From: Rugalucina vietnamica
Taxonomy: Eukaryota > Mollusca > Bivalvia > Lucinida > Lucinidae
Reading direction: 5' to 3'
Length of the DNA: 64,000 nt
NCBI GenBank assembly: GCA_964017185.1
Contig: OZ024883.1
Coordinates: 44,074,395-44,138,394, forward strand
Shown here: one piece after another, positions 25,757 through 62,236 of the stretch
How the letters are laid out: each line of letters starts with the position of its first letter
How positions within the stretch are numbered: position 1 is the stretch's first letter
Made by a program: the position numbers and the translations under genes
The notes under the pieces: generated by a model
Seen by the model: the letters and a program-made list of their open reading frames with translations, nothing else
What the model was told of the DNA's origin: nothing
Databases searched by the model: none

Positions 25757-27294
25757 AGCTCACCTAAGCCGAAGGCTCACAGGTGAGGTTATAGGATAGG
25801 TAGGCATCCGGCGTCCGTCCGTCGGTGTCGTCGACGTCCGTCGGTGTCGTCGGCGTCCGCCATTTTCAAAGATCTTCTTCTCTGAAATGGCTTGGCCAAT
25901 CAAAGCCAAATTTTATATAAAGCATTTATAGGAAGGGGGAACCAATGTGTATATAAGAAATCGAGGTCACATGACCAAGATGGCTGCCATGCCCATATAT
26001 GGTAAAAACCCTTCAAAAATCTTCTTCTCCTGAACCGGTGGACCGATTTCAATGAAACTTGGCATGAAGCATTGATGGCTCAAGCACTACAATGTATATA
26101 TAAATCATGACCCTGTGATGACCTTGACCTATTTTATGGCTAGGTCAACATAGGTCGCCAATGCATTTGAATGGGGAAAACTTCTTAAATGTCATTTAAA
26201 GTGAAAGTCTTGCAGGAAATGGGCAGTAGGACTGAATATTAATGATTCTGAAAACAATTGGACCCCAGGGGCTCATGTGCCACCTCCTGGGGGAAATATA
26301 CATGTATATCTGATTCTCCTTAATATTCAAACTTCTTCTCCTCTGAAACCGCTTGGCCAATCAAAGCCAAAATATATGTGAAGCATCTATAGAATAGGGG
26401 AATCAATGTGTATATAAATAATCTAGGTCACATGACCAAGATGGCCACCATGCTCATATACGGTAAAAACCCTTCAAAAATCTTCTTCTCGGGAACTGGT
26501 GGACCAATTTCAAAGAAATTTGGCTTGAAGCATTGGTGGCTAAAGTACTACAATGAGTATATAAATCATGACCCTGTGGTGACCTTGACCTATTTTGTGG
26601 CAAGGTCAACATGTCATAGGTGGCCTATGCATTTGAAGTGGGAAAACTTTTCAAAAGTCATTTGAGGTGAAAATCTTGCAGGAAATGGGTAGTAGGACTA
26701 AATATTCATGATTCTGAAAAAAGTTGGACCCAAAGGCTTATATGGCACCACCCTGGGCCAATATACATGGATATTACCATAATATTCAAACATCTTCTCC
26801 ACTGAAACTGCTTGGCCAATTAAAGCATCCATAGGAGCGGGGAACCAACGTGTATATTAATATGCTAGGTCACATGACCAAGATTGCCACCATGTCCATA
26901 TGAGGTAAAAACCCTTCAATAATCTTCTTCTCTGAAACCAATAGTAAAAGACTGATTTCAATGAAACTTAGCATGAAACATCGGTGGCTAAAGTACTACA
27001 ATGAGTATATAAATCATGACCCTGTGATGACCTTGATCAAGTTTATGGCAAGGTCAACATCGGTTGCCTATGCATTAGAATGGGGAAAACTGTTAAAATG
27101 TAATTTGAAGGGAAAAGCCAGCAGGAAATTGGCAAATTGGCAAATGGACAGAATATTGATTATTCTGAAAAAAGAAAATGGCCCAAGGGCTTCATCTGCC
27201 CCTGCACTGGGGTTAATTACCATAATATTCAAACATATTTATGGGTTTATGCAGCAGATCTCAGGTGAGCGTTTACAGGACCATTGGTCCTCTT
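25757..27294 (+). mobile_element. Type-A AGCTCACC-family element, complete (copy A2)
   Basis: The 5' terminus is AGCTCACCTAAGCCGAAGG with the hairpin GGCTCACAGGTGAG, then a CGTCCGTCGGTGTCGTCG tract, about three 450 bp monomers, and the 3' terminus CTCAGGTGAGCG ... AGGACCATTGGTCCTCTTG. It is bounded by T on both sides with no duplication. Confidence 0.88.
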
Positions 27295-32226: not shown

Positions 32227-33900
32227 AGCTCACCTGAGCCGAAGGCTCACAGGTGAACTTATAGGATAGGCAGGCATCCGTCGTCCGTCGTCGTCCGTTG
32301 TCCGTCCGTCCGTCCGTCGTCCGTCCACAATTTCAAAGAAGAATATTTCTGAAGCTAGTAGGCCGATCTTGATCAAATTTAATGTGAACCATAATTGGGT
32401 TGGGGGATTGATGGCATTAGGTTTTGGAGCAGATTGTATCAAAATTGTGGTTTCCATGGCAACAGATAGGTCCCATAGACTTACAATGGGAAAAACTAAA
32501 AAAATCTTCTTCTCTGAAACCACTAGGCCCACAGCTTTGATATTTGGTATGTAGCAATGGCTAATGGTCCTCTACATAAATTGTGCCATTCATGCCCCTG
32601 GGGTCAAATTTGGCCACGCCCCGGGGGTTGATAGTCTCCATAGACTTACTATGGGAAAAAAATTAAAAAATCTTCTTCTCTGAAACCACAGGGCCCACAG
32701 CTTTGATATTTTGTAGGTGGCAATGGCTAATGGTCCTCTACATAAATTGTGCCAATCATGCCCCTGGGGTCAAATTTGGCAACGCCCCGGGGGTCGATAG
32801 TCTCCATAGACCTACAATAGGGAAAAAACTAAAAAATCTTCTTCTCTGAAACCACTAGGCCAACAGCTTTGATATTTGGTATGTAGCAATGGCTAATGGT
32901 CCTCTACATAAATTGTGCCATTCATGCCCCTGGGGTCAAATTTGGCCACGCCCCGGGGGTTGATAGTCTCCATAGACTTACTATGGGAAAAAAATTAAAA
33001 AATCTTCTTCTCTGAAACCACAGGGCCCACAGCTTTGATATTTTGTATGTGGCAATGGCTAATGGTCCTCTACATAAATTGTGCCAATCATGTCCCCGGG
33101 GTCAAATTTGGCCACGCCCCAGGGGTCGATAGTCTCCATAGGCCTACAATAGGAAAAACTAAAAAAATCTTCTTCTCTGAAACCACTAGGCCCACAGCTT
33201 TGATATTTGATATGTAGCAATGGCTAATGGTCCTCTACATAAATTGTGCCATTCATGCCCCTGGGGTCAAATTTGGCCATGCCCCGGGGGGGTCGATAGT
33301 CTCCATAGACTTACTATGGGAAAAAAAATAAAAAATCTTCTTCTCTGAAACCACTAGGCCCACAGCTTTGATATTTGGTATGTAGCAATGGCTAATGGTC
33401 CTCTACATAAATTGTGCCATTCATGCTCCTGGGGTCAAATTTGGCCAGGCCCCGGAGGTTGATAGTCTCAATAGACTTGCTATGGGAAAAAAAATCAAAA
33501 ATCTTCTTCTCTGAAACCACAGGGCTCACAGCTTTGATATTTTGTATGTGGCAATGGCTAATGGTCCTCTACATAAATTGTGCCAGCCATGCCCCTGGGG
33601 TCAAATTTGGCCACGCCCCGGGGTAGATAGTCACCATAGACTTACAATGGGAAAAACTAACAAAAATCTTCTTCTCTGAAACCAAAAGGCCCAGAGCTTC
33701 TATATTTTGTATGTAGCAATGTTTGGTAGTCCCCATTATAAATTGTGCCAGTCATGCCCCTGGGTCAAATTTGGCCATGCCCCGGGGGTCAATAGTGTCC
33801 ATGCATAGATTTTCATTGGTCGATTCTCAATTAATTTAAATCTCATGAGCTTACAATGTGATAATCTCTCAGGTGAGCTACAGGACCAATGGTCCTCTAG
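32227..33900 (+). mobile_element. Type-B AGCTCACC-family element (copy B1)
   Basis: 5' terminus AGCTCACCTGAGCCGAAGG with hairpin, a CGTCCGTCGTCCGT tract, and a unique leader (GAAGAATATTTCTGAAGC, AACCATAATTGGGTTGGGG). Then come about eight tandem monomers of about 167 bp (CATGCCCCTGGGGTCAAATT ... TCTTCTTCTCTGAAACCAC) and the 3' terminus CTCTCAGGTGAGCTACAGG with hairpin AGGACCAATGGTCCT and CTAG|T. Inserted between Ts without duplication. Confidence 0.92.
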
Positions 33901-34728: not shown

Positions 34729-36740
34729 CTAGAGGACCATTGGTCCTGTAGCTCACCTGAGAGATTATCACATTGTAAGCTCATGAGATTTAAATTAATT
34801 GAGAATCGACCAATGAAAGTCTATGCATGGACACTATTGACCCCCGGGGCATGGCCAAATTTGACCCAGGGGGCATGACTGGCACAATTTATAATGGGGA
34901 CTACCAAACATTGCTACATACAAAATATAGAAGCTCTGGGCCTTTTGGTTTCAGAGAAGAAGATTTTTGTTAGTTTTTCCCATTGTAAGTCTATGGAGAC
35001 TATCTACCCCAGGGGCATGGCCAAATTTCACACCAGGGGCATGGCTGGCACAATTTATGTAGAGGACCATTAGCCATTGCCACATACAAAATATCAAAGC
35101 TGTGTGCCCTGTGGTTTCAGAGAAGAAGATTTTTGAATTTTTTTCCCATAGCAAGTCTATTGAGACTATCAACCTCCGGGGCCTGGCCAAATTTGACCCC
35201 AGGGGCATGAATGGCACAATTTATGTAGAGGACCATTAGCCATTGCTACATACCAAATATCAAAGCTGTGGGCCTAGTGGTTTCAGAGAAGAAGATTTTT
35301 TATTTTTTTTCCCATAGTAAGTCTATGGAGACTATCAACCCCCGGGACGTGGCCAAATTTGACCCCAGGGGCATGAATGGCACAATTTATGTAGAGGACC
35401 ATTAGCCATTGCTACATACCAAATATCAAAGCTGTGGGCCTAGTGGTTTCAGAGAAGAAGATTTTTTATTTTTTTTCCCATAGTAAGAAGATTTTTTTAG
35501 TTTTTCCTATTGTAGGTCTATGGAGACTATCGACCCCCGGGGCGTGGCCAAATTTGACCCCGGGGACAAATTTATGTAGAGGACCATTAGCCATTGCCAC
35601 ATACAAAATATCAAAGCTGTGGGCCCTGTGGTTTCAGAGAAGAAGATTTTTTATTTTTTTTTCCCATAGTAAGTCTATGGAGACTATCAACCCCCGGGGC
35701 GTGGCCAAATTTGACCCCAGGGGCATGAATGGCACAATTTATGTAGATGACCATTAGCCATTGCTACATACCAAATATCAAAGCTGTTGGCCTAGTGGTT
35801 TCAGAGAAGAAGATTTTTTTAGTTTTTTTCCTATTGTAGGTCTATGGAGACTATCGACCCCCGGGGCGTGGCCAAATTTGACCCCAGGGGCATGATTGGC
35901 ACAATTTATGTAGAGGACCATTAGCCATTGCCACCTACAAAATATCAAAGCTGTGGGCCCTGTGGTTTCAGAGAAGAAGATTTTTTTATTTTTTTTCCCA
36001 TAGTAAGTCTATGGAGACTATCAACCCCTGGGGCGTGGCCAAATTTGACCCCAGGGGCATGAATGGCACAATTTATGTAGAGGACCATTAGCCATTGCCA
36101 CATACCAAATATCAAAGCTGTGGGCCTAGTGGTTTCAGAAAAGAAGATTTATTTAGTTTATCCAATTGTAAGTCTATGGAGACTATCGACCCCCGGGGCG
36201 TGGCCAAATTTGACCCCAGGGGCATGGCTGGCACAATTTATGTAGAGGACCATTAGCCATTGCCACATACCAAATATCAAAGCTGTGGGCTCTGTGGTTT
36301 CAGAGAAGAAGATTTTTGAATTTTTTTCCCATAGTAAGTCTATGGAGACTATCGACCCCCGGGGCGTGGCCAAATTTGACCCCAGGGGCATGAATGGCAC
36401 AATTTATGTAGAGGACCATTAGCCATTGCTACATACCAAATATCAAAGCTGTGGGCCTAGTGGTTTTAGAGAAGAAGATTTTTTTAGTTTTTCCCATTGT
36501 AAGTCTATGGGACCTATCTGTTGCCATGGAAACCACAATTTTGATACAATCTGCTCCAAAACCTAATGCCATCAATCCCCCAACCCAATTATGGTTCACA
36601 TTAAATTTGATCAAGATCGGCCTACTAGCTTCAGAAATATTCTTCTTTGAAATTGTGGACGGACGACGGACGACGACGACGGACGACGGATGCCTGCCTA
36701 TCCTATAAGCTCACCTGTGAGCCTTCGGCTCAGGTGAGCT
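34729..36740 (-). mobile_element. Type-B AGCTCACC-family element, inverted (copy B2)
   Basis: It begins CTAGAGGACCATTGGTCCTG and ends CAGGTGAGCT, so it is the reverse of B1. It has the most monomers of any copy here, several with local rearrangements (for example around 35485, where two monomers are fused by deletion). Confidence 0.92.
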
Positions 36741-37938: not shown

Positions 37939-40128
37939 CAGGGCCCCTAGGGGAACCTTTAAAACCTTTAAAAACCTTATTTTAATGGAAATCCTTTAAA
38001 ACCTTTATTTTGTTCCAAAATCCACCAAAAAGCCTATAATTTTTCTCTCAAACCTTTATTCTGTGATAATTTTAACTAAATAGCCTTTATTAGCTCACCT
38101 GAGCCGAAGGCTCACAGGTGAGCTTATAGGATAGGCAGGCATCCGTCGTCCGTCGTCGTCCGTCCGTCGTCCGTCCGTCCGTCCGTCCGTCCGTCCACAA
38201 TTTCAAAGAAGAATATTTCTGAAGCTAGTAGGCCGATCTTGATCAAATTTAATGTGAACCATAATTGGGTTGGGGGATTGATGGCATTAGGTTTTGGAGC
38301 AGATTGCAGATTGCCATTCATGCCCCTGGGGTCAAATTTGGCCACACCCCGGGGGGTCGATAGTCTCCATAGACTTACTATGGGAAAAAAAATAAAAATC
38401 TTCTTCTCTGAAACCACAGGGCCCACAGCTTTGATATTTGGTATGTGGCAATGGCTAATGGTCTGCAACATAAATTGTGCCAGCCATGCCCCTGGGGTCA
38501 AATTTGGCCATGCCCCGGGGGTGGATAGTTTCCATAGACTTACAATTGGAAAAGCTAAAAAAATCTTTTTCTCTGAAACCACTAGGCCCACAGCTTTGAT
38601 ATTTGGTATGTAGCAATGGCTAATGGTCCTCTACATACATTGTGCCATTCATGCCCCTGGGGTCAAATTTGGCTACGCCCCGGGGGTTGATAGTCTCCAT
38701 AGACTTACTATGGGAAAAAAATTAAAAAATCTTCTTCTCTGAAACCACAGGGCCCACAGCTTTGATATTTTGTACGTGGCAATGGCTAATGGTCCTCTAC
38801 ATAAATTGTGCCAATCATGCCCCTGGGGTCAAATTTGGCCATGCTCCGGGGGTCGATAGTCTCCATAGACCTACAATAGGAAAAAAACTAAAAAAATCTT
38901 CTTCTCTGAAACCACTAGGCCAACAGCTTTGATATTTGGTATGTAGCAATGGCTAATGGTCCTCTACATAAATTGTGCCATTCATGCCCCTGGGGTCAAA
39001 TTTGGCCACGCCCCGGGGGTTGATAGTCTCCATAGACTTACTATGGGAAAAAAATTCAAAAATCTTCTTCTCTGAAACCACAGGGCCCACAGCTTTGATA
39101 TTTTGTATGTGGCAATGGCTAATGGTCCTCTACATAAATTGTGCCAATCATGTCCCCGGGGTCAAAGTTGGCCACGCCCAGGGGGTCGATAGTCTCCATA
39201 GACCTACAATAGGAAAAACTAAAAAAATCTTCTTCTCTGAAACCACTAGGCCCACAGCTTTGATATTTGGTATGTAGCAATGGCTAATGGTCCTCTACAT
39301 AAATTGTGCCATTCATGCCCCTGGGGTCAAATTTGGCCAGGTCCCGGAGGTTGATAGTCTCAATAAACTTGCTATGGGAAAAAAATTCAAAAATCTTCTT
39401 CTCTGAAACCACAGGGCACACAACTTTGATATTTTGTATGTGGCAATGGCTAATGGTCCTCTACATAAATTGTGCCAGCCATGCCCCGGGGGGTCAAATT
39501 TGGCCACGCCCCGGGGGTAGATAGTCTCCATAGACTTACAATGGGAAAAACTAAAAAAAACTTCTTCTCTGAAACCAAAAGGCCCAGAGCTTCTATATTT
39601 TGTATGCAGCAATGTTTGGTAGTCCCCATTATAGATTGTGCCAGTTGTGCCCCTGGGTCAAATTTGGCCATGCCCCGGGGGTCAATAGTGTCCATGCATA
39701 GACTTTCATTGGTCGATTCTCAATTAATTTAAATCTCATGAGCTTACAATGTGATAATCTCTCAGGTGAGCTACAGGACCAATGGTCCTCTAGTTTTACA
39801 TATTGCTATCAGGAAATGCTGAAATTGTAAGGGAACTTGAAGCTTAGTATTTGGCTTCTGGGGGCCTAGCCGGCTCCCAGACTCCTGGCTTAATTAAGCT
39901 TTATGCTTCACTCATACTTCTACAAGGGGGGACTCTTCTGGGTTATTTCACAAAGAGTTGGAGTGGAAAATAGGTGTTGCTGATCTCTGAAAACTATTTC
40001 ACTGTGTTGTAAGCAGACCACACTGTGCTCTTTATTTTCTCAAAAATCTGTCTTAAAGAGCCTTTATTTTGGCAAAAATAGCCTTTATAAAAAACCTTTA
40101 TTTTTCTTGGAATCTGCTAGGGGGCCTG
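37939..40128. mobile_element. hAT-like non-autonomous element containing copy B3
   Basis: Left end CAGGGCCCCTAGGGGAACC, right end GCTAGGGGGCCTG, an imperfect inverted repeat with the CAGGG start usual for hAT elements. TTCTTTCTTTC flanks both sides, so an 8 bp duplication inside the TTTC microsatellite is plausible. The non-nested sequence (about 490 bp) is packed with AACCTTTA / GCCTTTATTTT subterminal motifs. No transposase present. Confidence 0.72.
38092..39793 (+). mobile_element. Type-B element nested in the hAT-like element (copy B3)
   Basis: Complete termini. A deletion after GGAGCAGATTGC removes the end of the leader and part of the first monomer. About eight monomers remain. It is younger than the hAT-like element that hosts it. 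Confidence 0.92.
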
Positions 40129-42052: not shown

Positions 42053-43884
42053 AGCTCACCTGAGCCGAAGGCTCACAGGTGAGCTTATAGGATAGGCAGG
42101 CATCCGTCGTCCGTCGTCGTCCGTCGTCCGTCGTCGTCTGTCCACAATTTCAAAGAAGAATATTTCTGAAGCTAGTAGGCCGATTTTGATCAAATTTAAT
42201 GTGAATCATTATTGGGTTGGGGGATTGATGGCATTAGGTTTTGGAGCAGATTGTATCAAAATTGTGGTTTCCATCGCAACAGATAGGTCCCATAGACTTA
42301 CAATGGGAAAAACTAAAGAAATCTTCTTCTCTGAAACCACTAGGCCCACAGCTTTGCTATTTCGTATGTAGCAATGGCTAATGGTCGTCTACATAAATTG
42401 TGCCATTCATGCCCCTGGGGTCAAATTTGGCCACGCCCCGGGGGTCGATAGTCTCCATAGACTTACTATGGGAAAAAAATTCAAAAATCTTCTTCTCTGA
42501 AACCACAGGGCCCACAGCTTTGATATTTGGTATGTGGCAATGGCTAATGGTCCTCTACATAAATTGTGCCAGCCATGCCCCTGGGGTCAAATTTGGCCAC
42601 GCCCCGGGGGTCGATAGTCTCCATAGACTTACAATTGGAAAAACTAAAAAAATCTTCTTCTCTGAAACCACTAGGCCCACAGCTTTGATATTTGGTATGT
42701 AGCAATGGCTAATGGTCCTCTACATAAATTGTGCCATTCATGCCCCTAGGGTCAAATTTGGCCACGCCCCGGGGGTTGATAGTCTCCATAGACTTACTAT
42801 GGGAAAAAAATTAAAAAATCTTCTTCTCTGAAACCACAGGGCCCACAGCTTTGATATTTTGTACGTGGCAATGGCTAATGGTCCTCTACATAAATTATGC
42901 CAATCATGCCCCTGGGGTCAAATTTGGCCACGCCCCGGGGGTCGATAGTCTCCATAGACCTACAATAGGAAAAAAACTAAAAAAATCTCCTTCTCTGAAA
43001 CCACTAGGCCAACAGCTTTGATATTTGGTATGTAGCAATGGCTAATGGTCCTCTACATAAATTATGCCATTCATGCCCCTGGGGTCAAATTTGGACACGC
43101 CCCGGGGGTTGATAGTCTCCATAGACTTACTATGAGAAAAAATTCAAAAATCTTCTTCTCTGAAACCACAGGGCCCACAGCTTTGATATTTTGTATGTGG
43201 CAATGGCTAATGGTCCTCTACATAAATTGTGCCAATCATGTCCCCAGGGTCAAATTTGGCAACGCCCCGGGGGTCGATAGTCTCCATAGACCTACAATAG
43301 GAAAAACTAAAAAAATCTTCTTCTCTGAAACCACTAGGCCCACAGCTTTGATATTTGGTATGTAGCAATGGCTAATGGTCCTCTACATAAATTATGCCAT
43401 TCATGCCCCTGGGGTCAAATTTGGCCACGCCCCCGGAGTTGATAGTCTCAATAGACTTGCTTTGGGAAAAAAATTCAAAAATCTTCTTCTCTGAAACCAC
43501 AGGGCCAACAGCTTTGATATTTTGTATGTGGCAATGGCTAATGGTCCTCTACATAAATTGTGCCAGCCATGCCCCTGGGGTCAAATTTGGCCACGCCCTG
43601 GGGGGGGGTAGATAGTCTCCATAGACTTACAATGGGAAAAACTAAAAAAAACTTCTTCTCTGAAACCAAAAGGCCTAGAGCTTCTATATTTTGTATGTAG
43701 CAATGTTTGGTAGTCCCCATTATAAATTGTGCTAGTCATTCCCCTGGGTCAAATTTGGCCATGCCCCGGGGGTCAATAGTGTCCATGCATAGACTTTCAT
43801 TGGTCGATTCTCAATTAATTTAAATCTCATGAGCTTACAATGTGATAATCTCTCAGGTGAGCTACAGGACCAATGGTCCTCTAG
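42053..43884 (+). mobile_element. Type-B AGCTCACC-family element (copy B4)
   Basis: Complete termini and leader, about nine monomers. Inserted into unit 2 of the 335 bp tandem repeat between Ts. Confidence 0.93.
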
Positions 43885-44088: not shown

Positions 44089-45714
44089 AGCTCACCTGAG
44101 CCGAAGGCTCACAGGTGAGCTTATAGTATACCCGTCCGTCCGTCGTGGGCGTTCACAATTTCAAAGATCTTCTTCTCTGAAACCGCTTGGCCAATCAAAC
44201 TGAAATTTTATGTGGAGCCTCCATGGGTAGGAGGAATGAAAGTTTGTTCACGGGAACTTGATCACATGACCAAGATGGCCGCCGCGCCCATATATGGTAA
44301 AAACCCTTCAAAAATCTTCTTCTCCAGAACCGGTGGGCCGATTTCCATGAAACTTGGTATGTAGCATCGGGGACTCCAGCCCATCATAGTTTGTTAAAAT
44401 GATGACCCTGGGTTGACCTTGACCTATTTTACGGCAAGGCCAATTTTGGAAACAAAGGAAAAAGTAAAAACTATGGATTTTTTTGAAAAGTAGTGCAGCC
44501 AGAGACCTGAAAAGCACTAATGTAGTAGATGAAGGTATGTGATTAATTTAGGTCAAGGTCATCTCTTGACCTTGGCCATTCTATTGTCCACTCTATTGTA
44601 CACACTTTTCAAAGATCTTCTCCTCTGAAACTGCTTGGCCAATCAAAGTTAAATTTTATGTGCAGCATCCATGGGTAGGGGTTACAAAAGTTTGATCGCG
44701 AAATCCAGGTCACATGACCAAGATGGCCGCCAGGCCCATAGATGGTAAAAACCACTCAAAAATCTTCTTCTCCAGAACTGGCAGGCCGATTTTCACGAAA
44801 CTTGGTATGTACCATTTAGGACTACATGGTAGTTTGATAAAATGATGACCCTAGCATGACCTTGACCTGGTTTACGGCAAGGTCAATTTTAGAAACATAG
44901 GCTTTTACATCGGAAAAAGTGAAAACTATGGATATTTTGGAAACTGTTGCAGCCCGAGACCTGAAAAGTGGTAGATGAAAAACAGCTAATGAAAGTACGT
45001 GATTTATTTAGGTCAAGGTCATCTCTTGACCTTGACCAGTCTGTCATCCATACACACTTTTCAAAGATCTTCTTCTCTGAAACCGCATGGCCAATCAAAG
45101 TGAAATTTTATGTGGAGCATCCATGGGTAGAGGTAACAAAAGCTTGATCGCGAAATCCAGGTCACATGACCAAGATGGCCGCCAGGCCCATAAATGGTAA
45201 AAACCACTCAAAAATCTTCTTCTCCAGAACTGGCAGGCCGATTTTCATGAAACTTGGTATGTAGCATTTGGGACTACAGCCCAAATTACAGTTTGTTGAA
45301 ATGATGACCCTAGGATGACCTTGACCTATTTTACGGCAAGGTCAATTTTGGAAACATAGGCTTTTACATGGGAAAAGGAGAAAACAATGGATATTTTGGA
45401 AACTGTTGCGTTATTCATTTTTGCTAGGTGCAGACAACTAATGGAGTCAATGAAGGTAAGTAATTAATGAAGGCCAGGGTCATTTCTTGACCTTGACCCA
45501 AGGTCATTAAAATATCAAAATTAAAATTATGGTTTTCTCAGAAATCACTGGGTTTGGAAACTATTGCAGCCTGAGACCTGAAACTTTGCAGATGCAGACA
45601 ACTTATGAAGTCAATAAAGGTGTGTGAGTACTCAAGGTCAAGGTCATTTCATGATGACTTAATACTCAAAGATAATGCTTCAGGTGAGCGTTCTCAGGAC
45701 CAATGGTCCTCTGG
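44089..45714 (+). mobile_element. Type-A AGCTCACC-family element (copy A3)
   Basis: 5' AGCTCACCTGAGCCGAAGG, a short CCGTCCGTCCGTCG tract, and diverged monomers with GGTCACATGACCAAGATGG and TGACCTTGACCTATTTTACG. 3' CAGGTGAGCGTTCTCAGGACC to CTGG|T. Inserted into unit 3 of the tandem repeat. Confidence 0.9.
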
Positions 45715-47478: not shown

Positions 47479-49273
47479 AGCTCACTTGAGCCGAAGGCTC
47501 ACAGGTGAGCTTATAGGATAGGCAGGCATCCGTCGTCCGTCCACAATTTCAAAGAAGAATATTTCTGAAGCTAGAAGGCTGATCTTGATCAAATTTAATG
47601 TGAAGCATAATTGGGTTGGGGGATTGATGGCATTAGGTTTTGGAGCAGATTGTATCAAAATTGTGGTTTCCATGGCAACAGATAGGTCCCATAGACTTAT
47701 TGGGAAAAACTAAAAAAATCTTCTTCTCTGAAACCACTAGGCCGACAGCTTTGATATTTGGTATGTAGCAATGGCTAATGGTCGTCTACATAAATTATGC
47801 CATTCATGCCCCTGGGGTCAAATTTGGCCACGCCCCGGGGGTCGATAGTCCCCATAGACTTACTATGGGAAAAAAATTAAAAAATCTTCTTCTCTGAAAA
47901 CACAGGGCCCGCAGCTTTGATATTTAGTATGTGGCAATGGCTAATGGTCCTCTACATAAATTGTGCCAGCCATGTCCCTGGGGTCAAATTTGGCCACGCC
48001 CCGGGGGTCGATAGTCTCCATAGACTTACAATGGGAAAAACTAAAAAAATCTTCTTCTCTGAAACCACTAGGCCCACAGCTTTGATATTTAGTATGTAGC
48101 AATGGCTAATGGTCCTCTACATAAATTGTGCCATTCATGCCCCTGGGGTCAAATTTGGCCAGGCCCCGGGGGTTGATAGTCTCCATAGACTTACTGTGGG
48201 AAAAAAATTAAAAAATCTTCTTCTCTGAAACCACAGGGCCCACTGCTTTGATATTTTGTATGTGGCAATGGCTAATGGTCCTCTACATAAATTGTGCCAA
48301 TCATGCCCCTGGGGTCAAATTTGGCCAAGCCCCGGGGGTCGATAATCTCCATAGACCTACAATAGGAAAAAAACTAAAAAAATCTTCTTCTCTGAAACCA
48401 CTAGGCCAACAGCTTTGATATTTGGTTTGTAGCAATGGCTAATGGTCTTCTACATAAATTGTGCCATTCATGCCCCTGGGGTCAAATTTGGCCACGCCCC
48501 GGGGGTTGATAGTCTCCATAGACTTACTATGGGAAAAAAATTCAAAAATCTTCTTCTCTGAAACCACAGGGCCCACAGCTTTGATATTTTGTATGTGGCA
48601 ATGGCTAATGGTCCTCTACATAAATTGTGCCAATCATGTCCCCGGGGTCAAATTTAGCCACGCCCCGGGGGTCGATAGTCTCCATAGACCTACAATAGGA
48701 AAAACTAAAAAAATCTTCTTCTCTGAAACCACTAGGCCCACAGCTTTGATATTTGGTATGTAGCAATGGCTAATGGTCCTCTACATAAATTGTGCCATTC
48801 ATGCCCCTGGGGTCAAATTTGGCCAGGCCCCAGAGGTTGATAGTCTCAATAGACTTGCTATGGGAAAAAATTCAAAAATCTTCTTCTCTGAAACCACAGG
48901 GCACACAGCTTTGATATTTTGTATGTGGCAATGGCTAATGGTCCTCTACATAAATTGTGCCAGCCATGCCCCTGGGGTCAAATTTGGCCACACCCCGGGG
49001 GTTGATAGTCTCCATAGACTTACAATGGGAAAAACTAAAAAAATTTCTTCTCTGAAACCAAAAGGCCCAGAGCTTCTATATTTTGTATGTAGCAATGTTT
49101 GGTAGTCCCCATTATAAATTGTGCCAGTCATGCCCCTGGGTGAAATTTGGCCATGCCCCGGGGGTCAATAGTGTCCATGCATAGACTTTCATTGGTCGAT
49201 TCTCTAATTTAAATCTCGTGAGCTTACAATGTGATAATCTCTCAGGTGAGCTTCAGGACCAATGGTCCTCTAG
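47479..49273 (+). mobile_element. Type-B AGCTCACC-family element (copy B5)
   Basis: AGCTCACTTGAGCCGAAGG to CTAG|T, with a very short CGTCCGTCC tract and about nine monomers. Confidence 0.93.
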
Positions 49274-49685: not shown

Positions 49686-51002
49686 AGCTCACCTGAGCCG
49701 AAGGCTCACAGGTGAGCTTATAGTATACCCATGCTCTGGCGTCCGTCCGTCGTCGTCCGTCCGTCATCCACAATTTCAAAGATCTTCTCCTCTGAAACCG
49801 CTGGGCCAATCAAAGCCAAACTTCATGTGGAGCATCCTTAGGAAGGGGGAACGAATGTTTATATAAATGGTCCAGGTCACATGACCAAGATGGCCGCCAT
49901 GGCTATAAATAGCAAAAACCTTTAAAAATCTTCTTCTCCAGAACCAGAAGGCCTATGATCTTGAAACTTTGTGTGCAGCATCAGGGACAGGAGCTCTACA
50001 AAGTTTATATAAATCATGACCCTAGGATGACCTTGACCTATTTTACGGCAAGGTCAACTTAGGTCGCCAATTCATTTGAATGGGAAAAAATGGTAAAATC
50101 CTATTTAATAGGTAAAACTGAATAGGCAGATGGACAGAAGATTTATAATTATGGAAAAATTTTGCTCCCAGGGGGTTGTCTGCCCCTGCCCCCCGGGGCT
50201 ATATACATGTAAATTTCCAAAATATTGAAACATCTTCTCCTCTGAAACCGCTTGGCCAATCGAAGCCAAACTTCATGTGGAGCGTCCTTGGGGAGAGGGA
50301 AAAAAAGTTTATATAAATGGTCCAGGTCACATGACCAAGATCGCCGCCTTGGCTATAAATAGAAAAAAACCTTTAAAAATCTTCTTCTCCAGAACCAGAA
50401 GGCCACTGATTTTGAAACTTGGTGTGAATCATCAGTTACTGGAGCTCTACAAAGTTTATATAAATCATGACCCTGGGATGACCTTGACCTATTTTACGGC
50501 AAGGTCAACATAGGTCGCTCATGCATTTGAATGGGGAAAAGTGTTAAAATGTCATTTGTAGGGAAAAACTTGCAGCAAATGGGCAAATGGACTTAAAATT
50601 GATGATTCTGAAAAAATTTGGATCCCAGGGGTCTTTTGTCTGCTTCCACCCCGGTCTATTACAGTAATATTCAAAGATCTTCTTCTCTGCTTGGCCAGTC
50701 AAAGCCAAACTTTATGAGGAGCATTGTTAGGAAGTGGGAATGACAGTATATATAAATGGTCAAGGTCACATGACCAAGATGGCCGTCATGGCTTTAAATA
50801 GCAAAAACATTTATAAATCTTTTTCTCAAGAATCGGAAGACCTATGATTTTGAAACTTTGCCAGAAGCATCAGTGAATGGAGCTCTACAAAGTTTGTATA
50901 ATCATGACCCCCAGATGACCTTGACCTATTTTATGGCAAGGTCAGCTAATGTCGCATATCCCAGACCTCAGGTGAGCATTTACAGGACCATTGGTCCTCT
51001 GG
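49686..51002 (+). mobile_element. Type-A AGCTCACC-family element (copy A4)
   Basis: Starts AGCTCACCTGAGCCGAAGG, contains about three diverged monomers, and ends CTCAGGTGAGCATTTACAGG ... CTCTGG|T. Confidence 0.9.
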
Positions 51003-51411: not shown

Positions 51412-52954
51412 AGCTCACCTGAGCCGTAAGGCTCACAAGGTGAGCTTATAGTATACCCATGCTCCGTCGTCCGTCCGTCCGTCCGTCGTCCGTCCGTCGT
51501 CCGTCCGTCCGTCCGTCGTCCGTCGTCCACCATTTTCAAAGATCTTCTTCTCTGAAACAGCTTGGCCAATCAAAGCCAAATTTTACATGAAGCATCTATG
51601 GGAAGGGGGAACCAATGTGTATATAAATAATCCAGGTCACATGACCAAGATGGCCGCCATGCCCATATATGGTAAAAACCCTTCAAAAATCTTCTTCTCC
51701 GGAACCACTGGACCGATTTCAACCAAACTTGGCATGAAGCATCGATGACTCAAGTACTACAATGTGTATATAAATCATGACCTTGCGGTGACCTTGACCT
51801 ATTTTACGGCAAGGTCAACATAGGTCGCCTTTGCATTTGAATGGGAAAAATTGTTAAATTGTCATTTAAAGGAAAAATCTTGCAGAAAATGAGCAGTAGG
51901 ACTGAATATTAATGATTCTGAAAAAAATTGGGCACCAGGGGCTCATATGCCCCCACCCCGGGGCAATATACATGTATATTATCATAATATTCAAACATCT
52001 TCTTCTCTGAAACCGCTTGGCCAATCAAAGCCAAATTTTACATGAAGCATCTATGGGAAGGGGGAACCAATGTATATATAAATAATCCAGGTCACATGAC
52101 CAAGATGGCCGCCATGCCCATATATGGTAAAAACCCTTCAAAAATCTTCTTCTCCGGAACCGGTGGACCAATTTTAATGAAACTTGGCATGAAGCATCGA
52201 TGGCTAAAGCGCTACAATGTATATATAAATCATGACCCTGTGATGACCTTGACCTATTTTACGGCAAGGTCAACATGGTCCCCAATGCATTTGAATGGGG
52301 AAAACTTTTAAAATGTCATTTAAAGTGAAAGTCTTGCAGGAAATGGGCAATAGGACTGACTATTAATGATTCTGACAAAAAATGGACCACAGGGGCTCAT
52401 TTGCCCCCACCCCGGGGCAATATACATGTATATCTCCATAATATTCAAACACTTCTCCTCTGAAACCACTTGGCGAATCAAAGCCAAATTTTATGTGAAG
52501 CATCTATAGGATGGGGTAACCAATATGTATATAAATAATCCAGGTCACATGACCAGGGTGGCCGCCAGGCCCATATATGGTAAAAATAATTCAAAAATCT
52601 CCTTCTCCGGAACCAGTGGACCGATTTCTACGAAACTTGGCTTGAAGCATCGATGGCTCAAGTACTACAATGTATATATAAATCATGACCCTGTGATGAC
52701 CTTGACCCAGTTTATGGCAAGGTCAACATGGGTTGCCAATGCATTGGAATGGGAATAACTGTTAAAATGTCATTTGAAGAAAAAAGCCAGCAGGAAATTG
52801 GCAAATTGACAAATATTGATTATTCTGAAAAAGAAAATGGCCCAAGGGCTTCCTCTGCCCCTGCACTGGGATTAAATACCATAATATTCAAACATGTTTT
52901 TTGGTATATGCAGCAGATCTCAGGTGAGCGTTTACAGGACCATTGGTCCTCTGG
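51412..52954 (+). mobile_element. Type-A AGCTCACC-family element (copy A5)
   Basis: 5' AGCTCACCTGAGCCGTAAGG with a one-base-longer hairpin loop, a long CCGTCCGTCGTCCGT tract (51466-51529), three 450 bp monomers, 3' CTCAGGTGAGCG ... CTGG|T. It is the closest relative of copy A1. Confidence 0.92.
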
Positions 52955-54742: not shown

Positions 54743-56143
54743 AGCTCACCTGAGCCGAAGGCTCACAGGTGAGCTTATAAATAGGATAGGCAGGCATCCG
54801 TCGTCCATCGTCGTCCGTCCGTCCGTCCTCCGTCGTCCGTCCACAATTTCAAAGAAGAATATTTCTGAAGCTAGTAGGCCGATCTTGATCAAATTTAATG
54901 TGAACCATAATTGGGTTGGGGGATTGATGGCATTAGGTTTTGGAGCAGATTGTATCAAAATTGTGGTTTCTATGGGAACAGATAGGTCCCATAGACTTAC
55001 AATGGGAAAAACTAAAAAAATCTTCTTCTCTGAAACCACTAGGCCCACAGCTTTGATATTTGGTATGTAGCAATGGCTAATGGTCCTCTACATAAATTGT
55101 GCCATTCGTGCCCCTGGGGTCAAATTTGGCCACGGCCCGGGGGGTCGATAGTCTCCATAGACTTATTATGGGAAAAAAATTAAAAAATCTTCTTCTCTGA
55201 AACCACAGGGCCCACAGCTTTGATATTTGGTATGTGGCAATGGCTAATGGTCCTCTACATAAATTGTGCCAGCCATGCCCCTGGGGTCAAATTTGGCCAC
55301 GCCCCGGGGGTGGATAGTCTCCATAGACTTACAATTGGAAAAACTAAAAAAATCTTCTTCTCTGAAACCACTAGGCTCACAGCTTTGATATTTGGTATGT
55401 AGCAATTTCTAATGGTCAGGACTCTACATAAATTATGCCATTCATGCCCCTGGGGTCAAATTTGGCCATGCCCCGGGGGTTGATAGTCTCCATAGACTTA
55501 CTATGGGAAAAAAACTAAAAAATCTTCTTCTCTGAAACCACAGGGCCCACAGCTTTGATATTTTGTACGTGGCAATGGCTAATGGTCCTCTACATAAATT
55601 GTGCCAATCATGCCCCTGGGGTCAAATTTGGCCATGCCCCGGGGGTCGATAGTCTCCATAGACCTACAATAGGAAAAAAACTAAAAAAATCTTCTTCTCT
55701 GAAACCACTAGGCCAACAGCTTTGATATTCGGTATGTAGCAATGGCTAATGGTCCTCTACATAAATTGTGCCATTCATGCCCCTGGGGTCAAATTTGGCC
55801 ACGCCCGGGGGGGGGGGGGGGGGGGGGGGGGTCGATAGTCTCCATAGACTTACTATGGGAAATAAATTAAAAAATCTTCTTCTCTGAAACCACAGGGCCC
55901 ACAGCTTTGATATTTTGTATGTTGCAATGGCTAATGGTCCTCTACATAAATTGTGCCAATCATGTCCCTGGGGTCAAATTTGGCCACGCCCAGGGGGTCG
56001 ATAGTCTCCATAGACCTACAATAGGAAAAACTAAAAAAATCTTCTTCTCTGAAACCACTAGGCCCACAGCTTTGATATTTGGTATGTAGCAATGTCTAAT
56101 GGTCCTCTACATAAATTATGCCATTCATGCCCCTGGGGTCAAA
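54743..56143 (+). mobile_element. Type-B element, 5' part of the split copy B6
   Basis: Starts AGCTCACCTGAGCCGAAGG and runs through about seven monomers to GGGGTCAAA, where the Spy-like element interrupts. One monomer has its GGGG run expanded to 25 G (55807-55831). It resumes at 61776. Confidence 0.93.
55807..55831. repeat. Poly(G) tract of 25
   Basis: Sister monomers have only four or five G at this position (CGCCCCGGGGGTCGATAG), so the run expanded within this copy or is an assembly artefact. Confidence 0.9.
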
Positions 56144-56179
56144 GGACAAAATTCACGAACCAGCTGAATCGGCCCTGTA

Positions 56180-57605
56180 AATTGCGGAAAAGTCAAACTC
56201 GTTGTATTGAGTGGAAAACGTATTCAATAGCACAAGCAACATTTCATCTCTCAGGGTCTGAACTTTTTTTTCCGATTATATTGGCCCGGGTTGGCACTAC
56301 AGTGTGTTAAACATGGGTAGGTCGCCGGTTTTTCGTGTTTTTGGCCCGATTTTGCATTTTCACTCTCAGATTTGACTGTGGCCACAGCCTTTAACAACGA
56401 TGAAACTTTGAGAGTACAACAGTATTGCAATATGTTTTAGGTTTGTTCAGGTCTCGTTGTTGTTATTGCCTGTGACCATTGTTAAAAATAAACTTTTCTT
56501 CTCTTTTTGTCTTCCAAAACGTCCAAGGATGAGCGCGCCATTGAACGACGACGTCATCGAATCGGGGCACGTAGTATGACGTCATTCAATTAAGCGCACC
56601 TTGCGGAACCGATAATTGATTGTGCTTTAATAAGATTTGTTGTGTGCAAGTGCTCGCTGAGAGAAAAACAAACAGAAACCAGCAAACAAACTTACATACT
56701 GGACAAGACATGCTGAATTTGATTATGACCTGACTTCAAATACGTAGCTAAAATTATGAAACCAATTTTACGGGTGCTCCTGTTGGAAACATTTTGAAGC
56801 CCTATATTATTTGTGACTGATTGATGCACACACACACATGTATTCCCAAACACACGCAGTTCCGTCTTAACACTCACGAAATTATGTTACATGTGGTATT
56901 TTAGAAATCTTACATTACGGAGTTTATTGTGTATGCTGGCTTCTTCCGTTGAATGCGCATTGTCAACAGAGATGTGCTTAGTTAAAGAAAAAAAAAACTC
57001 ATGCTACGGCAGGATGGTCTTCATCATAATCTTTATCGCTGCAGGTCACGTTCTTAATTCATGTCACTGACGGAAATGTCGTTGCATTGTAAAGAGTAGG
57101 CAAGAAGTCTGTACTTCTAGGTCGCTTTTTAACACGAATAACGTGCTACACTCAGCTCCGCCTCAATTTTATGTGTATTTTAGTATTGAAAGAGTAAAAA
57201 CAATGTTGAAAGTTGTATTATTTAACGTAAAATTGCTGAGATGTTTAAACTTTCACAAAAAAGATCGGTAATGATTTTGCCATCTGAGTAGTTTCCCTTT
57301 TCTTTTTCGCATATGGCAAGATCTAGTTTTTTTTTATCCATGACAAAACTTGACAAGGCGTGATCGTCTTAACCTTATTTGAGCCACAACATAGCAGGGA
57401 ATAATTTATTAACTGCATCACAAATGCGTTAAAACAAAGCCTGTGTTGAGCCAGGGCATCTGCGCATTTTCACCAAAATATCGCCCGAGTAAGCCTAGCA
57501 ACCGAAATCATAACGGTTTATCCATTCCTTGCAATTTTAAAAGCACTAGATGATACAGGCTTATGCAGTATCGTCTGTATATTTGTACTTCTACGTCTCT
57601 GTCTA
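56180..57605. other. Interior of the Spy-like element, nothing recognised
   Basis: No transposase motif in any frame. (CA)n-like sequence at 56827-56839. TGACGTCATTC near 56577 and CGACGTCATCG near 56550 are present. Confidence 0.4.
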
Positions 57606-57772
57606 TTGATTGGTTGTATTGGTATGTAGTGTTTTACATTCCACTCAATGGCCATGGTCATATAGAGACGGGACCCCGGTTTAAAGTCTCATCCCGGTAA
57701 GAAAACTTCGGAATCGAACTCACGATGTCAGCTGTGCACTTGGCGATTAGCTTAAAACACTATGTCACGGAG
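57606..57772 (-). mobile_element. tRNA-derived SINE, minus strand
   Basis: On the minus strand, GTGACATAGTGTTTTAAGC (A-box-like) and GTGAGTTCGATTCCG (B box) precede a short body ending near AATACAACC. Imperfect tRNA fold. Confidence 0.6.
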
Positions 57773-58224
57773 GTTTCGTTCTCTGTCTGTGTGTAAGTCT
57801 ACACACGGCGGCCTTCCACTTTGATAATTCGGCAAAATGGACAACAATAGCCTTCATTCCCAAGGCTTAAAAGTTCCGACGCGATGGTCTTGTATACATT
57901 CCTTCCAAGCTAAAACGGTCGCTTGTACTCAACTCATTAGTGTACTGGGTATACAAACCAACCCGATACCAACCATATATCACAGGAAACCAAGGAGAAT
58001 CTGCTTCTCCAGAGTTGACAGTTTACACGGAAACATATTGTAGCTATCTGAGACTGTTATTACCTGATAGTTCGTCTCTCACTAATGAGAAAGACCATCA
58101 TTATTTCTTGAATAGTGCTGATGTGTCACAAACTAAGGCTTCAAGTGCCAGAGAGAGAGTATGGGTCGTCCAGATATGATTCCAGTACATACAATAGATA
58201 AACAAAGTCGGGTGAAGATATGGG
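57773..58224. other. Interior of the Spy-like element, nothing recognised
   Basis: Two overlapping short frames here lack domain features. Confidence 0.35.
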
Positions 58225-58490
58225 CCCCGTCCACTGTCACGTAAAGAAATAGATGGACTGCTTGTGCCTCCAGACAAAGCTTCTACGCTTTTGACTGACC
58301 ATCTGATTACACATTACTGGTTAAACGCTCAGGTCTGAGCCTACCCAGGAAAAGTGGTTCAAGTCAAAACCACCCATACATACAAACCATATGGGCCTAA
58401 TTGGGCGGTTATATTTGAACACTTTTTGGATGCCATGGGTAAATGTCCTATAAAATGTGGGCAACATCTCGAAATGACCTAAGCTGTTGG
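58225..58490 (+). mobile_element. Family F retroposon
   Basis: TCTGAGCCTACCCAGGAAAAG, TCAAAACCACCCATACATAC, GGTTATATTTGAACAC, ATGCCATGGG and GAAATGACCTAAGCTGTTGG, then an AAAG repeat that may be its tail. Confidence 0.72.
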
Positions 58491-58515
58491 AACGCTAAAC
58501 CACAAAAACAGAACA

Positions 58516-58559
<44 letters not shown>

Positions 58560-58570
58560 AAAAAAGAAAA
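58516..58570. repeat. (AAAG)n microsatellite
   Basis: About 12 AAAG units directly after the family F copy. Confidence 0.92.
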
Positions 58571-59094
58571 TGTTGCTATCGTTCTGGCGATCCTTTGAAC
58601 TGAAATGTAAATGATCCAATGTTTTACCCTTTCCATGGCTCTGTTAAACGTAGATTGCTTAAAATGTTGGTTGATTCAAACGGGTTTGTCACGACCTTAA
58701 ACAGGCGTACATGTAGATTGCCATTCAAGTGGCTCGTGACGGCATTTGAACTAGAAAGCGTACACAGAACTGCAAATAATCACATGTACAGAAACATGTA
58801 GCTTCTTGATCTATTGATATAAAAAAGAGCTCTTCGTGACATTTTTTATGTTACCCCATTTGACTGCGCGGTGTCGCAAGAGGTCTGAGGTTTCCAACCC
58901 GGGCTCATGACCGCGTGTAAACCATTTAACTCGTCGTTGATTGTCCGTATGCATGTCCTGGGCATCAAACAACAATACAAACCATTTGAAAGGAAAAAGA
59001 TAATTTGCAGTTTCTTCTTCTTTAATCGCGATAATACTTAGTCTACGAAATGTAGATCTAGTACTTAACAACGTTTTACGCAACAAATAAAGGG
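58571..59094. other. Interior of the Spy-like element, nothing recognised
   Basis: No exon or repeat recognised. Confidence 0.35.
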
Positions 59095-59275
59095 TAGTCG
59101 GGTGGCAATATGGGACCCCGGTCACCCGCCCCGGCATTCGGGCGTGAAGAATTGGCTTGGTTAGCTGGTTATATTTAAAGCCTTTTTTGGTTGTCATGAC
59201 ATCCGTAATTTTGGGTGGGCTGCAAGTCCCATAAAAATGAGACAACGTCCCGACATGATCATAGCTGTTGACCGA
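59095..59275 (+). mobile_element. Family F retroposon, partial
   Basis: GGGTGGCAATATGGGACCCC, GGTTATATTTAAAGCC, GTCATGACATCC and CGACATGATCATAGCTGTTGAC match the family order with the middle deleted. Confidence 0.68.
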
Positions 59276-60364
59276 GACCTAACAAAACATGATATAGACA
59301 CTGTGCGCTACCTGTATTGGAGTTGCCTCCCTTGAAAATAATGTGGCAAATAATAATCATTTTCCCTTATTGTTTTGAATATTATAATGGGGACGTTTTC
59401 TTTATCAATCAAATCAGATAAGATCTTTTTATATTAAAGGAGTTTCGCCTATCAAAGATAAAAATACATTTAAAAAGGTCTTTAAAATGAAAAACAAAAA
59501 TCTTCTCGAATGCACTTTTTATGTTTAATATAAAAATCATACTTTCTCGTTTCGGTCATACTTGTTTAGAATCATTATTTCGTTCTTGAAAAAAATTTGA
59601 ATATCAAATACCGACACGGGTGTGTGGAAACCGATAATTATCGTGACATGTATTCCCCATTAAGCAGATACTGACGCCGACATGTGCATGCGCTTAATGC
59701 ACTAGCATGTCGCCTTAAGAAAACGGGATCGTGGTAATTCATGCAACTTGCGACTGTTAATGTTTGATCGATATTAGTATGATGCACCAATCATTTGTAT
59801 CCCCGTCCCTCTAGGGCCTGGAGCGGGGACACAGAGGGGCTAAAGTGCCGGAATAGTGATGAGTCACGGCAGTACCGGGGATGTGCCGGGCTTTTAATAT
59901 CCCGCAAAAATATGTTATTCCGCAGTATTGCAAAAATACCCGTGTCACACGATATCAACAACCATTTATTAATGAAGAAAAAGCCATTTATTAATATTGA
60001 AATTCACGTGCGCACGTGCTGTTAATACACGGCTTTTACTTATGCTCGTTGCCGGGCGCCACGCAAAGCACGTGCTAATAATGAGAAACTAAGGACGGCC
60101 CGTAATGAGCATAAAAATGAAAGCTTTTACGCGTATGAAAATGTGACGAGGCTGTTAAATATAGTGCACCATTATTTCTTTCGTTTATGCAGAATTTATG
60201 CAATAATAGCGATCAAAAATGATTTTGCCATTCACTAACATTTGCAAGGTCCTTTGGCGAGTGTTGAAAACATCGGGCTACGCCCTCGGTTTTCAACACC
60301 CCTCGGGACCTAGCGAATGTTAATGAATGGAAAACCATGTTTGATCCATATATTGTTGTCAGTC
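59276..60364. other. Interior of the Spy-like element
   Basis: 59800-59930 has CCGGGGATGTGCCGGGCTTT-style sequence similar to 40880-40960. At 60225-60320, TTCACTAACATTTGCAAGG and CTAGCGAATGTTAATGAA, with AAAACATCGGGCTACGCC, form an inverted pair. No gene recognised. Confidence 0.4.
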
Positions 60365-60535
60365 GGCTCTGGGGAGCCGCAACTTTTAGCAGGGACTTTA
60401 TCACAAATCTGACCCCGCATTGCCGGGTTTTTAGCAGAGCTGTAAAAACTGAAAAGTTAAATACAATGTACCCCGCTATGGCCCGGCCCCTGGGGGTGTG
60501 GATATAAATCACAGGTGCATTAAAGCCTCGTCACA
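60365..60535 (+). repeat. Family G dispersed repeat
   Basis: CTTTTAGCAGGGAC, CAAATCTGACCCCGCATTGC, TTTTTAGCAGAGCTGTAAAA, ACTGAAAAGTTAAA and CAGGTGCATTA follow the same order as 41135-41255. Confidence 0.6.
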
Positions 60536-60639
60536 TGTTTATGCGTGTCAAAACTTTATTTAAGTTATTCATTTTTAGCACGTGTTTTGCATGCCAATGC
60601 CGCCCGGTAACTCGTAAAATAGAATAAGCATAAATAAAA

Positions 60640-60874
60640 TGACCCGCGACGCGAGAAAACCGGTCTTTGGGGTTTCTGACCAGGTCCTATACAATCCAAT
60701 CTGAACAGTTACTAAAACAGGCTACAAGCTTGAAATTTCGGATTTAAGAAGAAGAGAAATTTTATCCATGTAGCAAAAACAAAGGCGCTGATCAGCTTCG
60801 CGGTCACTGCGAAGCTGATCTGTGCCTTTGTTTTCGCATAGGCAAAAATCCGGTATTCTCACGATGCGCCGCGA
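60640..60874 (-). mobile_element. Family C MITE nested in the Spy-like element
   Basis: TGACCCGCGACGCGAGAAAACC to CTCACGATGCGCCGCGA with an intact central hairpin. Only a few terminal bases differ from the family. Confidence 0.85.
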
Positions 60875-61740
60875 ATCGTGTATTAACAGCGCGCACTCGC
60901 GAATTGCCCATTTACTTTACGGCTTTCGTCTTAATTAATAAACGCCTGTTCATATTGTGTGAAACTGGTCTATTAATGCAATAAATTACATTTACAAGAA
61001 AAAAATTAAGAATTTACACATTTTATTCATTGCCCTTTCGCCATGCGTGACGGAAACTTGCATCTGTAATATCTCGTCACATAGTTGGCGTATTGGCGCG
61101 TCCAAAAGCATATGCATGCATGTCTTGTTTTAAGCATGATAATGGACCGAGAGAGCAAAATAATGTTCTTTTTCTTAATTGGCAGACTGATGTCACGACC
61201 CGGTATTTGTGCAAGTGCAACAAACTCTGCGTTTCTCCCATGACGTTCCTGTTAACTTTTCGGAGTGACCGATATGGGTCTCTAGATTATTTATTTCTCA
61301 TCAATCTCATATTTTGGAAAACTGTAATAATCATGGTTCATATCTAATGACTGCCACTTTAGATTATCGCACTGTAGATATCGGGCTACTGGAGATATTA
61401 ACAATGCCATACGTTCATTTCTTGTCCTACGTTCATCGCTGATGAATGAAGTTAGGGGGTTGCACCTGTGTAAATCATTGACTAACAGTGTCACGGTAGC
61501 AATGATATCCATTTCCAACTGGTGGTCAGTGAGTGCGAACAGAATATGTTGCATACATAACGCTGCTACGACAAGCGTATAACGTCAATAACGTTATAAA
61601 TTCACTACCCGCGTCGCGTGGGGTAGGGTATGTTAATGACGTCAGAAATGCTTTATAATTACGTCACATGTTTCAAAAATACATTTTCGATCTCAGGAGA
61701 CCTACGTCTATCTTGTATCCACATTTCATTAATTTCTGAT
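60875..61740. other. Interior of the Spy-like element, nothing recognised
   Basis: No transposase or other domain found. Two overlapping short frames near 61093-61554 are not called. Confidence 0.4.
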
Positions 61741-61775
61741 ACAGGGCCGATTTTGGCCATTCGTGAACCTTGTCC

Positions 61776-62236
61776 TTTGGCCAGGTCCTGGAGGTTGATA
61801 GTCTCAATGAACTTGCTATGGGAAAAAAATTCAAAAATCTTCTTCTCTGAAACCACAGGGCACACAGCTTTGATATTTTGTATGTGGCAATGGCTAATGG
61901 TCCTCTACATAAATTGTGCCAGCCATGCCCCTGGGGTAAAATTTGGCCACGCCCCGGGGGTAGATAGTCTCCATAGACTTACAATGGGAAAAACTAAAAA
62001 AAACTTCTTCTCTGAAACCAAAAGGCCCAGAGCTTCTATATTTTGTATGTAGCAATGTTTGGTAGTCCCCATTATAAATTGTGCCAGTCATGCCCCTGGG
62101 TCAAATTTGGCCATGCCCTGGTGGTCAATAGTGTCCATGCATAGACTTTCATTGGTCGATTCTCAATTAATTTTAATCTCATGAGCTTACAATGTGATAA
62201 TCTCTCAGGTGAGCTACAGGACCAATGGTCCTCTAG
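61776..62236 (+). mobile_element. Type-B element, 3' part of the split copy B6
   Basis: Resumes TTTGGCCAGGTCCTGGAGG, exactly the continuation found in copy B3 (39329 onward). It finishes two monomers and the 3' terminus CTCTCAGGTGAGCTACAGG ... CTCTAG|T. Confidence 0.93.

Follow-up and report, generated by a model that had tools for sequence, protein, structure and literature searches.

The closest described relatives of the element considered here are the Spy transposons, which insert between AAA and TTT without target duplication (PMC4482050; PMC11304231) and are unlike other DNA transposons in this respect (PMC4482050). Spy is reported to produce blunt breaks and non-staggered insertions, to transpose in human cells, to encode its transposase in one open reading frame and to have intact lengths of 1,165-5,910 bp (PMC11304231). 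ISL2EU is its sister clade (PMC11304231), and Repbase classes Spy as ISL2EU (PMC12730594). ISL2EU elements recognize A/AT/T, duplicate the AT, have ends that usually begin with GG and encode helix-turn-helix (HTH), DDE, THAP and YqaJ domains, whereas PIF/Harbinger, Pangu and Nuwa duplicate TWA, ANT, CWG or TNA (PMC4482050). The same 2015 survey cautions that non-autonomous elements may have gone undetected, as its search was based on transposases (PMC4482050). An element with Spy-like insertion behaviour was examined in a 64,000-nt stretch of the 1.09 Gb assembly of the bivalve Rugalucina vietnamica (contig OZ024883.1, positions 44,074,395 to 44,138,394), and this whole stretch is referred to below as the window.

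The element, GGACAA...TTGTCC, occupies positions 56144-61775 of the window and is 5,632 bp long. The host repeat reads GGGGTCAAA up to 56143, GGACAAAATTCACGAACC opens the element at 56144, its last letters, ATTCGTGAACCTTGTCC, end at 61775, and the host resumes with TTTGGCC from 61776. An earlier first-pass annotation of the window had described a type-B repeat that is interrupted and resumes at TTTGGCC, with 36-bp ends starting GGACAA around the inserted DNA, and this was confirmed base for base. The inverted arms are 36 nt long, imperfect and 78% complementary. It is probable, at about 0.85, that the element is a young non-autonomous Spy-type transposon of the PHIS superfamily. The features concerned are as follows.

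56144..61775, plus strand: element read as non-autonomous Spy-type, no transposase, 5,632 bp
56144..56179, plus strand: left terminal inverted repeat, GGACAAAATTCACGAA followed by GCCCTGT at positions 29-35
61740..61775, minus strand: right terminal inverted repeat, minus-strand reading GGACAAGGTTCACGAATGGCC...GCCCTGT
56141..56143, no strand: AAA, left target half (38 of 39 left ends agree)
61776..61778, no strand: TTT, right target half (38 of 39 right ends agree)
54981..56143, plus strand: host repeat (type B), left part, tandem units ~166 bp apart
61776..62139, plus strand: host repeat, right part, after the insertion, from the window sequence and repeat comparison

The genome was searched with a left-end and a right-end query of 120 bases each, and 40 places were scored for each query, from 50 and 56 candidates, respectively, at 91-100% identity. 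The left-end query held the AAA (3 of its 120 bases) and the right-end query was without the TTT. On each side 39 of the 40 ends were examined, as C12:22941271 and its right end, C12:22946489, were left out. AAA was found before 38 of the 39 left ends and TTT after 38 of the 39 right ends, and the flanks past these three target bases vary (19 copies). The terminal inverted repeats also recur in the copies that were read. The predicted recurrence of both ends across the genome, flanked by AAA and TTT, is therefore borne out. The first-pass annotation had set two outcomes against its own reading, ends that do not recur elsewhere and real target duplications; neither was found, because both ends recur at many genomic places, and no duplications were seen. 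At L061 and L041 (C6:38243117-38248860) the flanks read AAAAATTTT ... TTTAAAAAAA, which may reflect an off-centre insertion or a later change, and at L071 (C6:15304032-15307300) the right terminus and TTT flank have apparently turned into a short tandem repeat.

The joined flanks of four copies, located in four kinds of host repeat, were compared with uninterrupted relatives, and none showed a target duplication. At the window site, the 400 bp of joined flank have 53 distinct matches in the window, at 82-98% identity, in which the junction is uninterrupted; 52 of these junctions read AAATTT and one AAAGTT. As 52 of the 53 empty relatives already hold AAATTT, the AAA and the TTT are both derived from the target, and nothing was gained or lost on insertion. 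The site of L026/L027, in a repeat with a ~450-bp unit, has AAATTT in 10 of 21 relatives, AAGTTT in seven and other sequences in four. For the site of L017/L016, in a short dispersed repeat, AAATTT is present in 19 of 30 relatives, one A fewer in the alignment in seven and others in four; these relatives are partly non-independent, as the element family itself carries this repeat and some of the relatives are its internal copies. The L013 site, in a local tandem repeat, has three relatives, one with AAATTT and two with AAACAG. Neither the AT duplication characteristic of ISL2EU nor the TWA duplication of PIF/Harbinger was found at the empty relatives compared. Insertion at AAA^TTT without duplication, as proposed in the first-pass annotation, is thus upheld by the genomic ends and by the empty relatives of the four host repeats, which supports a Spy-type reading as far as insertion behaviour is concerned.

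One and the same AAATTT in the ~450-bp repeat has been the target at no fewer than seven family loci, in both orientations (L026/L027, L033, L039, L058, L063, L067 and L069), and L050 has on its left the type-B site that is occupied in the window. The ~450-bp units occur in rows, and their AAATTT is a recurrent target for the window family and for one copy of the T1 element described below. The rows in the window are as follows.

207-1293, 25862-27019, 44160-45267, 49767-50907 and 51526-52688: rows of the ~450-bp repeat

The longest stop-to-stop frame has only 163 residues among 17 copies, the window copy included, and 183 residues in the remaining split or longer stretches. When the T1 transposase was compared with the element and L001-L072 using tblastn, nothing with an E value below 2.4 was found. 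A decayed transposase within the window element was rejected on the basis of the short frames together with this search, and the claim that the element lacks a transposase and is non-autonomous stands on the same two results. No Rfam match above gathering scores was found in the element, and no tRNA gene was predicted by ARAGORN in the window. Three loci were considered as autonomous forms and rejected. In L030, the three longest frames upstream of the family part have no Pfam match, and the locus looks like another insertion. L053 and L056 have only ~219-246 bp of the left end in common with the family; frames in L053 do not exceed 105 residues in ~3 kb, and ~3 kb of L056 includes a frame that, by eye, resembles a reverse transcriptase.

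Elements with related ends that do carry a transposase gene were found elsewhere in the genome. The pattern AAAGGACAANNTTCACGAA, with one mismatch allowed, occurs at 151 places compared with 15 for a reversed control, and among the places listed for it a GGGC variant, AAAGGGCAAAATTCACGAA, is recurrent. Frames of 468 residues located ~3 kb inside two GGGC ends gave weak matches (29.4 bits) to the helix-turn-helix family PF13613. The element designated T1 is 6,501 bp long, lies on C4 between AAA and TTT, and runs from GGGCAAAATTCACGAA to GACTTAACCC. Its gene has two predicted exons separated by a 532-bp GT..AG intron and a predicted product of 678 residues, in which residues 312-481 match the full DDE_Tnp_4 profile (Pfam; E=1.4e-17). 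A match to HTH_Tnp_4 (25.5 bits) is just below the cut-off of 27, and a C-terminal match to the SWIM zinc finger (11.7 bits) is well below the cut-off of 19.6. Judged by eye, the catalytic D, D and E probably lie in VLDGTYI, VVDRGFRD and VVEAANARIK, in which case the intron separates the second D from the E. For exon 1 (440 residues), no PDB relative was found at E up to 1 and no NCBIfam family at its cut-off, and the T1 transposase has no THAP match at E up to 1. Outside both exons, frames of 120 or more residues in the T1 stretches are limited to low-complexity ones in L074, and no YqaJ profile search was made.

A search with T1 exon 1 gave 88 matches from 96 scored of 142 candidates. Among the scored candidates, five T1 copies share 99-100% identity in exon 1 and have the 468-residue frame; the rest are the T2 group described below (longer pieces mostly 69-84% identical) and distant relatives down to 25%. 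Over the stretch covered for both, two T1 copies differ at 4 of 1,339 exon 1 bases and at none of the 717 in exon 2; outside the exons they differ at 52 of 3,861 aligned bases, with gaps uncounted. AAA precedes four of four T1 left ends, two of which had been picked via an AAA-containing pattern, and TTT follows five of five right ends; the left end of the C13 copy lies outside the stretch that was read. The C1 copy occupies a site in the 450-bp repeat that members of the window family also use, and its relatives mostly read AAATTTT where its joined flank reads AAATTT. The distant relatives of the T1 transposase at C8:32672872-32676512 and C17:12737401-12741021 (44-56% identity) have frames of 482-751 residues and form divergent pairs at the two loci, with matches slightly over 1 kb apart; for the relatives at C8:12650951 and C17:12737401/12739792, no ends were found in the stretches read. 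Many genomic places also read AAAGGACAAATTTCAGGAA (e.g. C1:58325617, C1:62981069 and C4:33174022) and possibly represent another repeat family with similar ends.

The second candidate autonomous family, T2, has a left-end pattern that was found at 20 places with three mismatches allowed, compared with none for the control, and all 20 are free of mismatches and preceded by AAA. All 20 lie 1.6-5.9 kb upstream of a transposase match on the same strand, in a comparison that used 44 of the 88 exon 1 matches, and there are a few T2-like matches without a T2 left end (C6:26503260, C14:47606396 and C1:55093094). Two T2 elements were followed to the right end, and are 5,470 and 5,520 bp long by coordinates, both followed by TTT. 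L091, one of the two T2 elements that were read through, has a second exon split by a frame change, and the exon start in one T2 copy is T1's predicted exon start.

In register and without gaps, the ends of the window element match those of T1 at 27 of 40 left-end and 28 of 40 right-end positions, compared with best scores of 23 and 22 among 128,602 background positions (the window outside the element and the T1 interior), and they match those of T2 at 29 and 30 of 40. Across the six ends, GG at positions 1-2, T at 9, CAC at 11-13, AA at 15-16 and GCCCTGT at 29-35 are invariant. Apart from dispersed or simple repeats, no interior sequence is common to the window element and T1 or T2. Judging from ends and target, T1 may serve the window family. 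The DDE transposase that the first-pass annotation expected among copies of the family was found in part, as T1 and T2, with matching ends, carry one of PHIS type and none is present in the GGAC-ended copies listed.

It is possible, though rather unlikely, that the window family was moved not by T1 or T2 but by a GGAC-ended autonomous element of its own that has escaped detection. The A in place of G at end position 3, the unrelated interiors and the existence of more distant transposase relatives (44-56% identity), for which the stretches read revealed no ends, are consistent with such an element. However, none of the 84 listed family ends lies within 47 kb of a scored PF13359 match or an entered T1-protein match. 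This comparison used 150 PF13359 matches scored of 415 candidates and 52 places from the 88 T1-protein matches, after fragments belonging to one place and entries that the PF13359 list already contained had been omitted.

On the preferred reading, the window element is mobilized by a helper of the T1/T2 type, and a PHIS transposase expressed from an autonomous copy would act on the window family in trans. It would bind a two-part end made up of a terminal GGRC..TTCACGAA and an inner GCCCTGT at positions 29-35, and the element would be excised by double-strand breaks. Both strands would be joined bluntly to a target that had been cut straight across in the middle of AAATTT, and an unstaggered cut would leave gap repair with nothing to duplicate. 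A founder with unrelated DNA between such ends would have been copied in a recent burst. A more specific and doubtful proposal, which we put forward only tentatively, is that the T1 and T2 transposases are a separate lineage next to Spy that inserts bluntly at AAATTT and is marked by an intron dividing the second D from the E and by a C-terminus that is SWIM-like and binds zinc. This lineage would drive passengers that are long and non-coding, their interiors having been acquired from host repeats and not by deletion of an autonomous element.

The age of the window family was assessed from the divergence of its copies. Same-strand blocks of sister copies are mostly 94-98% identical to the window element (about 90-98.5%). 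The left ends (445 bp) of 19 copies differ by 0-2.0% from their majority sequence, the window copy by 1.35%, and 17 of 19 right ends (640 bp) differ by 0.2-2.4%. The right ends of L018 and L025 (14.5% and 35.5%) were set aside; their outlying values are due to a nested insertion or deletion within the compared 640 bp. In 50-bp bins, the body is common to at least 16 of 18 other copies apart from a few stretches, and element bins 1851-1900 and 2001-2050 are present in 15 of 18. Large internal deletions were seen in L021 and L025 and a smaller one in L009. Segments of note in the body are listed below.

58066..58130 (about), no strand: 65 bp confined to the window copy (0 of 18 others), within larger gaps in L009 and L021
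59556..59715 (about), no strand: 160-bp block that splits the family, carried by seven of 18 others, the remaining 11 having other sequence or a deletion
58207..58489, plus strand: family-wide dispersed-repeat segment, relatives at 34033, 37788 and 12781
60627..60877, plus strand: family-wide dispersed-repeat segment; other copies of the repeat are targets of L017/L016 and the C14 T1 copy

As the nested repeats are common to at least 16 of the 18 other copies, the founder already carried them; the window family is young, and its nested repeats predate the burst. The first-pass annotation had regarded the element as an old form or relic that had gathered its nested repeats in place, which is very improbable. 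A body with several dispersed repeats and no gene would fit that view, as would the existence of older lineages, in which longer blocks are mostly 76-88% identical (L034, L035, L036, L038, L051, L052, L054, L055, L057 and L058), but the low divergence of the 19 left ends, the window's own included, and the shared nested repeats argue against it. The repeats are thus present in the body as had been noted, but are not a private collection of the window copy, and of the earlier Spy reading the insertion behaviour and non-autonomous status hold while the great age does not. A still older lineage, L070, has blocks of 70-74%, and L037 and L072 are short, internally deleted forms. Equally hard to sustain is an ordinary short target duplication hidden in AAA and TTT, with these bases owned by the element or the duplication lying within them: AAA...TTT does lengthen the inverted repeat to 39 bp, so that the border is ambiguous from one copy alone, but the AAATTT of the window-site relatives refutes this for the window copy, and the flanks beyond AAA and TTT vary between copies.

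Several observations weigh against the reading of the element as a young Spy-type transposon served by T1 or T2. The left end of L061 is preceded by TTT, and the right end of L032 ends differently and is followed by AAAGG. Empty-site support is weaker where AAATTT is seen in just one of three (L013) or 10 of 21 (L026/L027) relatives. The joined flank of L017/L016 has one A more than its best relatives, and the C14 T1 copy (L086/L085) has the junction GAAAAAA^TTT where most empty relatives read GAAA/TTT, an unexplained excess of three A; because of these additional bases, a small target change may occur at some sites. No GGAC-ended copy with a transposase was found, the T1 and T2 ends being GGGC, and with these ends and unrelated interiors the pairing of the window family with T1 and T2 comes down to ends and target only. 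Membership of the Spy clade itself is putative.

The type-B tandem repeat (unit ~166 bp) forms six arrays in the 64 kb, in both orientations, and a run of 25 G is found inside one type-B unit (55807-55831). Long frames resembling those of a long interspersed nuclear element (LINE), with endonuclease-like, reverse-transcriptase-like and zinc-finger-like stretches recognized by eye only, are located at 20760-23982 on the minus strand.

32465-33803, 34826-36518, 38312-39695, 42282-43787, 47681-49179 and 54981-62139, both orientations: type-B arrays

Annotation that relies on duplications or transposase genes overlooks families of this type, above all non-coding ones. The locus combines a clear empty site with a family of at least 40 left ends (19 of them measured as young) and with candidate helpers in the same genome, and the pairing of helper and passenger and the role of the two-part end are therefore directly testable.

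PIF/Harbinger, Pangu and Nuwa resemble the families described here in having DDE transposases of one superfamily, for which at least 150 PF13359 places, unsorted by group, are present in the genome, but none of their duplications is seen at the compared sites. ISL2EU shares a target centred on the same AATT core, ends that usually start with GG, and HTH and DDE domains, but has the AT duplication and the THAP and YqaJ domains, whereas there is no duplication here and the T1 transposase gave no THAP match. Autonomous Spy members have a PHIS DDE transposase of >500 residues encoded by one gene, with a DNA-binding domain; the predicted T1 product has 678 residues with HTH_Tnp_4 below threshold, and the window element encodes none. 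The window family further differs from Spy in being long and non-coding, and T1 differs in the predicted intron in its catalytic domain, the sub-threshold C-terminal SWIM match and a length of 6,501 bp, which exceeds the published range of 1,165-5,910 bp for intact Spy. A term search of the 2024 Spy paper (PMC11304231) found no zinc, intron, MITE (miniature inverted-repeat transposable element) or nonautonomous, and in a sample of open-licence literature no account was found of a Spy family that is long and non-coding, nor of a Spy transposase with an intron or a SWIM-like end, the SWIM match here being sub-threshold. In common with Spy, the window family has insertion between AAA and TTT, no duplication and terminal inverted repeats, and its T1 relatives carry a PHIS-type DDE transposase encoded by a single gene. 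Spy-type insertion itself is already known, and the window element is a new example of an uncommon kind of transposon.

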